A DNA stretch of 64,000 nucleotides from Flavihumibacter fluminis. GTDB taxonomy: Bacteria > Bacteroidota > Bacteroidia > Chitinophagales > Chitinophagaceae. A program made the position numbers and the translations under genes. Positions 731 through 1,873 of this stretch are shown here, in pieces. Location: the NCBI RefSeq assembly GCF_021491375.1, contig NZ_JAKEVY010000003.1, positions 434,001 to 498,000 of the forward strand. Direction: 5' to 3'. The notes under the pieces are model-generated. The model saw nothing but the letters and a program-made list of their open reading frames with translations. It did not search any database and was not told the origin of the DNA. Numbering within the stretch: the first letter of the stretch is position 1; each line of letters starts with the position of its first letter.

Positions 731-783
731 GGGAGGAAGTGAGAAGTGAGACGTGAGAGGTGAGACGTCAGAAGTGAGAAATG
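731..783 (+). repeat. GTGAGACGTC-type dispersed repeat, copy a
   Basis: Tandem variants of GTGAGA[A/C]GTGAGA with the core GTGAGACGTCAGA. Related copies lie at 1921-1970 (inverted), 2440-2475, 6161-6190, 43297-43325, 43648-43740 and 45455-45512. This copy is the only one not next to the 3' end of a protein gene; it lies between the start of the beta-barrel gene and the terminators of the tRNA-like genes. Confidence 0.75.
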
Positions 784-812: not shown

Positions 813-890
813 ACCTAACAGCTGTAAACACACACATGAGAAAAAACAGTGTGTACCAATGGCATGCAATCGAAACCGATGCGGCGGTAC

Positions 891-921
891 AAAAAAATCC
901 CGCGTTTAGGCCGGGATTTTT
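891..921 (-). terminator. terminator just after the tRNA-like genes (bidirectional shape)
   Basis: AAAAATCCCG and CGGGATTTTT form a 9-10 bp stem around a 9-base loop. On the minus strand it ends in a T run five bases beyond the 3' end of the first tRNA-like gene, so it is the natural end of that transcript. Confidence 0.8.
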
Positions 922-926
922 AAATG

Positions 927-1119
927 CTGTAGGGGGAGGAGTCGAACCTCCACGGGGCAGTTAGCCGTAGTACAATGCTTAGTGGTCAACCCTGGTCGGC
1001 TTTATTACAGTCCAGTTTGCACTGAACAGCAATACCAGTCGGCTCTATGCTACGTTTATCCTGTAATCCCCACCCTCGAGACGAGAGGGCATGTCTGCCA
1101 AAAATTTCATCACCCCACA
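927..1119 (-). tRNA. tRNA-like gene 1, with a 121-base variable region
   Basis: Read on the minus strand, this 193-base element folds as a cloverleaf. It has a 7-bp acceptor (TGTGGGG with CCCTACA, one G:U), TG at positions 8-9, a 3-bp D stem ATG/CAT with GG in the loop, an anticodon stem CCCTC/GAGGG around loop TCGTCTC, and a 5-bp T stem GGAGG/CCTCC with loop TTCGACT, then G73. CCA is not encoded. The region between the anticodon and T arms is 121 bases, far beyond ordinary class II tRNAs. It can form nested helices: GGGG/CCCC, CAG/CTG, CGTAG/CTACG, CTGGT/ACCAG, and a 7-bp hairpin capped by GCAA. By position the anticodon is GTC, but C33 and T37 are atypical. Whether it decodes or is a tRNA-shaped regulator or decoy is not known. 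Confidence 0.65.
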
Positions 1120-1143
1120 GTGTAAAGAGCAACTATTAAAAGT

Positions 1144-1263
1144 TGGCTGTAGGAGGAGGAGTCGAACCTCCACGGGGCAGTTAGCAAGTTTTCACTTCTT
1201 TGTCCTGTAATCCCCACCCCCGAGACAAGGGGGCATGTCTGCCGAAAATTTCATCATCCCACA
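1144..1263 (-). tRNA. tRNA-like gene 2, with a 45-base variable region and encoded CCA
   Basis: On the minus strand this 120-base element has the same cloverleaf as its neighbour: acceptor TGTGGGA/TCCTACA, D stem ATG/CAT, anticodon stem CCCCC/GGGGG with loop TTGTCTC, T stem GGAGG/CCTCC with loop TTCGACT, G73 and an encoded CCA. Two compensatory differences from copy 1 (A:T for G:C in the acceptor, C:G for T:A in the anticodon stem) support the fold. The variable region is 45 bases, with GGGG/CCCC and CAG/CTG helices and an AAGT/ACTT hairpin capped by GAAA. The D arm looks like tRNA-Leu, G73 fits Asp or Ser, and the anticodon position reads GTC, so identity is contradictory. It is probably co-transcribed with copy 1 from the promoter at 1289-1321. 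Confidence 0.7.
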
Positions 1264-1288
1264 GTATGTTCTAAGAACTTTGATAGTG

Positions 1289-1321
1289 CAAACATACAGC
1301 AAAAGGCCAATTCATTGCAAA
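1289..1321 (-). promoter_or_regulatory. promoter for the two tRNA-like genes
   Basis: On the minus strand, TTTG (1318-1321) is followed after 21 bases by TATGTTTG (1289-1296), an exact match to the Bacteroidota TAnnTTTG element. Transcription would begin near 1282, about 20 bases before tRNA-like gene 2. Confidence 0.7.
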
Positions 1322-1405: not shown

Positions 1406-1873
1406 ATGGCTGGAAAATTGAATTTAGACAAACTGGATTATCAGATTATCCAGGAGATGATGGAAAATGCCGAAACTTCCTATGCTGATTTGGGTAAAAA
1501 GTTATTCGTTTCCGGTGGAACCATACATGTCCGCATCAAAAAATTGCAGGAAATGGGCATTGTAAAAGGGAGCCGCCTGAATGTAGACCTGAAATTACTG
1601 GGGTACGATGTAATTGCCTTTATTGGTATTTACCTGGAAAAAAGTTCGCTGTATGACAATGTTGCGAAAGAGCTGAGCAAGATTCCAGAGATTGTACGGA
1701 TGAATTATACAACTGGTAACTATAGTATCCTCGCGGAGATCATTTGTAAGGATATCAACCATTTAAGAAATGTATTGCATGACCAGTTACAGAAAATAAA
1801 GGGAATTGAGCGAACCGAAACCTTTATTTCGCTGGATGAGAGTTTGAACAGGAATGTGGAAGTACGGATATGA
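1406..1873 (+). CDS. Lrp/AsnC family transcriptional regulator
   Basis: A 155-residue protein with an N-terminal winged helix-turn-helix (LDYQIIQEMMENAETSYADL, then GGTIHVRIKKLQEMGIVKG) and a C-terminal ligand-binding RAM domain (about residues 60-150, containing MNYTTGNYSILAEI). Lrp/AsnC proteins act as dimers or octamers and respond to amino acids or related small molecules. The reading frame is open from 1235, but that would overlap tRNA-like gene 2; the ATG at 1406 gives the usual family length and the MAGKLNLDKLD start, so I chose it. It is transcribed away from the tRNA-like genes. The target is unknown; a link to those RNA genes is only suggested by position. Confidence 0.9.
   Translation: MAGKLNLDKLDYQIIQEMMENAETSYADLGKKLFVSGGTIHVRIKKLQEMGIVKGSRLNVDLKLLGYDVIAFIGIYLEKSSLYDNVAKELSKIPEIVRMNYTTGNYSILAEIICKDINHLRNVLHDQLQKIKGIERTETFISLDESLNRNVEVRI

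Follow-up and report, generated by a model that had tools for sequence, protein, structure and literature searches.

A tRNA-like RNA family of Bacteroidota and of viral contigs as a candidate non-decoding carrier for tRNA-dependent asparagine synthesis

Two tRNA-like genes, the short copy A and the long copy B, lie in tandem on the minus strand of the window (the whole 64,000-nt stretch of Flavihumibacter fluminis DNA that was analysed), next to a divergently oriented gene for an AsnC-like regulator (Table 1). A first-pass annotation made from the letters alone had described such a pair at 927-1263, with one common cloverleaf, variable regions of 121 and 45 bases and inner hairpins capped by GNRA loops; strand, coordinates and fold are as it described, the caps being GAAA and GCAA. 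The anticodon loops that it gave are also read directly, TTGTCTC in copy A and TCGTCTC in copy B, both with anticodon GTC and a pyrimidine at position 37, and with C33 in copy B. The variable region of copy B contains inner hairpins and a GGGTTGACCAC element.

Table 1. Features of the locus in window coordinates; coordinates of the two copies and their variable regions were read off the window sequence.
Feature	Position	Strand	Remarks
Terminator (probable) of the gene pair	about 890..921	-	Hairpin then T-run; direct reading, no terminator program
Long copy B, U1..G73	1119..927	-	193 nt; R1 match of 179.9 bits at 923-1122
Variable region of copy B	1072..952	-	121 nt
Anticodon GTC of copy B	1082-1080	-
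boxA-like TTGCTCTTTA preceding copy B	1123..1132	-	Motif count and direct reading
Short copy A, U1..G73	1263..1147	-	117 nt; R1 match of 140.4 bits at 1143-1266
Variable region of copy A	1216..1172	-	45 nt
Anticodon GTC of copy A	1226-1224	-
Leader with boxA-like AGTTCTTAGA preceding copy A	1267..1282	-	Motif count and reading
Promoter -7 box TATGTTTG	1289..1296	-	Direct reading
Near-palindrome TTGAAATATTTGCAA	1315..1329	-	Overlaps presumed -33 region; motif chosen by eye from these sequences
AsnC-like Lrp/AsnC regulator gene	1406..1873	+	Pfam PF01037, PF13404, PF13412; divergent from the RNA

The TAnnTTTG promoter and the terminator that had been annotated are both present by direct reading, and an exact TAnnTTTG lies within 118 nt upstream of the RNA in 34 of the 44 loci that have an AsnC-like neighbour. 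The near-palindrome is possibly a candidate site for the regulator, or a promoter element only; at a score of 10 or more, its motif is about equally common in copies with (34/44) and without (14/18) an AsnC-like neighbour. A single AsnC operator was rejected, as the TTGAAnnATTTGCAA element is equally common where the regulator is missing. Upstream of both genes are sequences that we take to be boxA-like, and the motif [GT][CT]TCTT occurs within 30 nt upstream of 35/103 copies of the RNA, compared to a mean of 4.6 and a maximum of 12 after shuffling. Short repeats GTGAGACGTGAGA / TCTCACGTCTCAC found between genes of the window (741-780, 1925-1965, and 2440-2475) resemble interspersed repeats.

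Single-sequence folding is weak for copy A (z -1.17, 23/200 shuffles as good) and better for copy B (z -2.48, 3/200), so the argument that the fold is better than chance relies on pair conservation among relatives. A covariance model (R1) was built from 32 aligned copies, which include copies A and B, whose R1 scores are therefore not independent; in this alignment 99.8% of pairs are standard and 12/28 pairs show double changes. In 62 loci that we picked from its hits, R1 found 103 copies, 102 of them distinct, a search for relatives that had been suggested with the original annotation and that yielded homologues with conserved arms. In the 102 distinct copies the pairing is kept in 99.0% of pair cells, and double changes occur in 20/28 pairs, with 0/500 shuffles as good and 360 double-change cells observed against a shuffled mean of 82.7, which bears out the compensatory stem changes noted earlier. 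Slid partners pair in only 52.0-56.7% of cells in the same alignment, which was fitted to the R1 structure and is biased towards it. The 5-bp T stem is paired in 100% of cells, the 7-bp acceptor stem may be extended by an eighth pair, N-1:G73, that is C-G or U-G in 95/102 copies, and the variable arm has stems of 4 bp and 3 bp that covary, together with an internal loop, GATAAA / CTAA, that is conserved. Given that relatives with a conserved fold exist, the alternative of degenerate tRNA pseudogenes is ruled out.

ARAGORN called no tRNA in the window, and Rfam, also suggested as a check for a known family, gave 0 matches at the gathering cut-off; relaxing the limit to E 10 yielded sub-threshold matches alone, the best to U4atac (24.1 of 53 bits). 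A search of the open-licence literature found no description of this RNA family. The two genes are confirmed to belong to a conserved family of RNAs that occurs both in many Bacteroidota and on viral contigs; in this window neither Rfam nor ARAGORN reported it. Two further structural candidates were rejected. A hairpin around GGGTTGACCAC is not claimed, because only its first flanking pair beats shuffles (49/118 versus a mean of 30.1 and a maximum of 44) and the remaining pairs do not, and a GTTGACCACTAA string that resembled a short tmRNA-like tag frame has a final codon that varies. One copy (L068, 956-1164) has an extra D-loop hairpin and a further variable-region insert, and several viral copies (L358, L330, and L350) have enlarged D loops too.

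The family is widespread. In a nucleotide search with E values of 0.1 or less, relatives were present in 37 of 59 related genomes, and matches at E up to 1e-18 occur in 103/147 genomes of the window's family. Of 394 genomes sampled across the phylum, 196 pass E 1e-8; by hand count 40 of these 394 score at least about 94 bits, the next highest score is 62.8 bits, and the weaker matches are presumed to be tRNA-Leu. The 40 high-scoring genomes belong to families f1, f18, f23, f28, f29, and f30, and to f68 of another class. An exact anticodon-arm pattern finds at least 120 stretches in named genomes, where 80/80 loci examined hold a copy; titles among the matches listed include Chitinophaga, Flavihumibacter, Niabella, Dyadobacter, Spirosoma, Cyclobacterium, Algoriphagus, Neolewinella, and one Ignavibacteriales bin. 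Tandem copies are common, and the short form of copy A is found in the genus, in G022, and in a few others. Beyond the window, ARAGORN leaves uncalled a pair of weak tRNA-like matches in tandem (L072, G000:C32:249669-249793; 31.4 and 28.5 bits to RF00005), which look like a run of tRNA remnants. A 90-nt gene with a long variable arm (L077, G000:C21:239335-239418), named tRNA-Phe(gaa) by ARAGORN, could also be read as a tRNA of Ser type (anticodon TGA), and the first pairs of its acceptor stem are mismatched.

The same pattern finds 118 stretches in IMG/VR, and a copy is present in 80/80 viral loci examined; contig ends truncate two of these. ARAGORN found other tRNA genes in 25 and a tmRNA in 6 of 46 such loci, and in one (L326) genes for a terminase and a portal protein lie near the RNA. 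No AsnC-like gene is present in the 80 viral loci. In a test that used single-letter shuffles and dropped copies without the GACCAC motif, a palindrome of at least 8 nt just after GACCAC occurs in 26/45 distinct viral regions (shuffled mean 3.7, maximum 8), and in host sets in 6/30 (mean 2.2, maximum 6) and 2/44 (mean 3.3). Palindromes of 10-12 nt, as in L361, L383, and L311 (GCTAGCTAGC, GCCGGCCGGC, GCATGCATGC), are usually absent in host copies, and such a self-complementary loop may allow a kissing dimer. Searches of named phages and plasmids with the window or two viral queries gave no match, and a third viral query gave 35-base matches only, to tRNA-Tyr of two Enterobacter phages. Like tmRNA, which is present in some of the same phages, the RNA has tRNA-like ends, but its insert has no conserved open tag frame and its best Rfam tmRNA match is 9.4 bits over 17 positions.

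The strong aspartate determinants of bacteria listed in the accessible text of PMC9976931 are G73, G34, U35, C36, and C38. G73, U35, C36, and C38 are each present in 102/102 distinct copies and G34 in 99/102, and G2-C71, a further likeness to tRNA-Asp, is invariant (102/102). The first-pass annotation had seen conflicting identity signals, with a Leu-like D arm and an Asp/Ser-like G73. The conflict and the Leu-like D arm stand; the Asp-like signals prove to be a nearly complete determinant set and not noise, while a Ser set fails at C72 (A72 in 102/102) and at C11-G24 (16/102). Compared by eye, the RNA resembles tRNA-Leu in its D arm (GATGAAATT..GGCAGAC), a 3-bp D stem and the variable-stem topology, but differs in having G73 instead of A73, the anticodon GTC, U1-A72, and a 45-121 nt variable region; because of the D arm and variable-arm topology, the RNA body would appear to descend from tRNA-Leu. 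It differs from tRNA-Asp in U1-A72, a position 10 that is mostly A (G10 in 9/102), the large variable arm, a free position 33, and a pyrimidine at 37. This identity set, with the drop in score between the 40 genomes and the rest of the phylum sample, rules out an ordinary duplicate of tRNA-Leu or tRNA-Asp, and a normal tRNA-Asp(GTC) is present in the window's genome.

Of the 102 copies, 77 have U at position 33, 13 have C, 7 have A, and 5 have G, so 25 lack U33; position 37 is U in 94, C in 5, and G in 3, and never A. The U33 and purine 37 of a decoding tRNA-Asp are thus not maintained, and the best reading of these loops is that the RNA is probably non-decoding. Allo-tRNAs are also unusual tRNA genes whose anticodon is at odds with the body; as excerpted in PMC7609411, they have 8/4 or 9/3 acceptor/T arms and Ser identity (Mukai et al. 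2017), and some are uncharged by E. coli enzymes. The family described here differs in its 7/5 (or 8/5) arms, its Asp identity, and its link to an AsnC-like gene.

The accessible text of PMC9976931 further states that G1-C72 is strictly conserved and crucial in bacterial tRNA-Asp, and that U1-A72 allows amidation of Asp-tRNA by GatCAB while G1-C72 plus U20a prevent it. U1-A72 is found in 102/102 distinct copies, 94/95 named-genome copies, and 57/59 viral copies, the exceptions being A1-U72 in 2 viral copies and A-A in 1 named-genome copy. The presumed position 20a, in our own numbering, is A in 102/102 copies, so the U20a antideterminant is missing. Of the 36 tRNAs listed for the window's genome, U1-A72 is confined to tRNA-Asn and tRNA-Gln, and tRNA-Asp has G1-C72. 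With aspartate determinants and U1-A72 in one molecule, the RNA therefore carries the recognition features of two enzymes whose successive action yields asparagine.

We compared 24 genomes with the RNA and 20 without it, six of the latter from one family. GatCAB presence, judged from gatB alone, follows the RNA: gatB occurs in 24/24 RNA-positive and 0/19 RNA-negative genomes with G215 set aside (p 1.2e-12, uncorrected for kinship). G215, the sole RNA-negative genome (1/20) with gatB, was set aside because its AsnC-like gene lies 157 nt from a contig start, which may have cut off the RNA. AsnRS is present in 44/44 genomes. Two genomes, G222 and G271, keep the AsnC-like gene without RNA or gatB; in G222 (L437, 1486-2839) about 120 nt separate that gene from the next open frame, presumably trmB-like to judge by its start, and the RNA seems to have been cleanly lost. 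Beside the AsnC-like gene of RNA-negative genomes (six loci, filters off), a search for a diverged RNA gave nothing above 8.7 bits.

The AsnC-like gene itself is most similar to AsnC. Its best NCBIfam model is AsnC at 162 bits, below the 227-bit equivalog cut-off (next model, 67 bits), and its best PDB chain is E. coli AsnC (5.4e-33; next, 1.9e-20). Across the 147 genomes of the family, 101 have both RNA and gene, 6 the gene only, 2 the RNA only, and 38 neither (p 2.2e-26, uncorrected for kinship); RNA-positive and RNA-negative genomes are related, so this p-value and that for gatB are overstated. RNA and gene are mostly lost together. Where both are present, they are divergent and within 500 nt in 97/101 genomes, at a median of 150 nt, and in two of the four non-adjacent cases the gene lies at a contig start. 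The AsnC-like gene is the next divergent upstream neighbour in 45/62 loci, which extend beyond the window's family. In E. coli, asnA adjoins asnC. AsnC there activates asnA, whose product makes asparagine from aspartate (PMC4482635, in excerpt). Only 3 of the 44 compared genomes have asnA, and asnB models score over cut-off in 35/44; 6/24 RNA-positive genomes have neither asnA nor an asnB that reaches its cut-off.

Taking fold, conserved determinants, adjacency, and co-distribution with gatB and the AsnC-like gene together, we consider it likely, from sequence comparison, that the RNA does not decode and serves as a dedicated carrier in tRNA-dependent asparagine synthesis. Once expressed, it would be loaded with aspartate by AspRS reading G34-U35-C36, C38, and G73, and GatCAB, reading U1-A72, would then amidate the bound aspartate to asparagine. 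The product would be kept off the ribosome by the free position 33, by a position 37 that is a pyrimidine or, rarely, G, and by the large variable arm, and asparagine would be released or passed on by a further step. The divergent AsnC-like regulator probably sets transcription of the RNA, which would take the place of asnA beside asnC and come under control by asparagine. The first-pass annotation had offered a regulator, an enzyme sponge, or a strange tRNA class; its suspicion of a non-decoding RNA holds, and the data point more specifically to an AspRS/GatCAB substrate linked to an AsnC-like gene.

This carrier would resemble the tRNA-Asn route (non-discriminating AspRS, GatCAB, and the transamidosome), in which aspartate loaded by AspRS is amidated by GatCAB via U1-A72 (PMC4206432 and PMC9976931, both in excerpt), steps that are only proposed for the RNA family. 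There, the carrier is the decoding tRNA-Asn and requires a non-discriminating AspRS, whereas here it would be a distinct RNA whose anticodon is that of Asp and whose loop does not suit decoding. The variable arm may serve to keep the enzymes assembled, a role that tRNA-Asn plays in the transamidosome.

Several observations weigh against a carrier. U1-A72 replaces G1-C72 and G10 is scarce, so AspRS may charge the RNA poorly; G34 is lost in 3 copies, most copies keep U33, and U1-A72 has the exceptions given above. As 18/24 RNA-positive genomes already have asnA or over-cut-off asnB, the carrier route would not always be the sole route to asparagine. The regulator scores below the curated AsnC cut-off and is not adjacent to the RNA in several Saprospiraceae-type (f18) genomes, and its presumed operator is not specific to loci that have it.

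The aspartate determinants and the AsnC-like neighbour would also suit a decoy or aspartate sensor, in which AspRS binds or charges the RNA to tune AspRS or the regulator and no amidation takes place; we think this unlikely, as it leaves unexplained both the invariant U1-A72 in place of G1-C72 and the gatB match. The gatB link could instead be indirect, with RNA-positive genomes that lack GlnRS keeping GatCAB for Gln-tRNA-Gln and the RNA doing another job. A GlnRS motif scan of 456 loci (about 3.1 Mb) and of 1.6 Mb of one RNA-positive genome gave no match, but it likewise missed GluRS, which must exist. RNA-negative genomes without gatB would need GlnRS to translate, yet they are scattered in the same family, even beside RNA-positive members of group g46, and the accessible text of PMC4206432 names Bacteroidetes among clades with AsnRS, GlnRS, and GatCAB together. 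Keeping gatB for Gln only gives no reason for the joint loss of RNA and AsnC-like gene and leaves U1-A72 unexplained, and we regard such an indirect link as quite improbable. In Staphylococcus, non-decoding tRNAs feed the cell wall, a precedent for Asn (or Asp) on the RNA being transferred non-ribosomally, for instance to lipid, cell wall, or a protein end, instead of supplying free asparagine; this seems very improbable, as the conserved neighbour is an AsnC-like regulator and no conserved transferase gene lies beside the RNA. A translating tRNA, such as an allo-tRNA-like missense or suppressor tRNA, is hardly credible despite the cloverleaf, T loop, GTC anticodon, frequent U33, and phage copies among tRNA genes, given the copies without U33, the complete lack of A37, the 7/5 (or 8/5) arms, and the normal tRNA-Asp(GTC) already in the genome.

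For the carrier reading as a statement about the whole class we lean only slightly towards acceptance: the family would be a dedicated RNA cofactor for amino-acid making, aspartate-loaded and amidation-ready, that no longer decodes, takes the place of asparagine synthetase under an asparagine-type regulator, and is carried by Bacteroidota phages with a possibly dimerising self-complementary loop. Many bacteria hold AsnRS and GatCAB together, and their reason for retaining the amidotransferase is still debated (PMC4206432, in excerpt). If the carrier reading is true, a separate carrier RNA would explain the retention of GatCAB for many Bacteroidota without a non-discriminating AspRS, a tRNA would have been wholly repurposed for metabolism, and phages would have a reason to carry the RNA.
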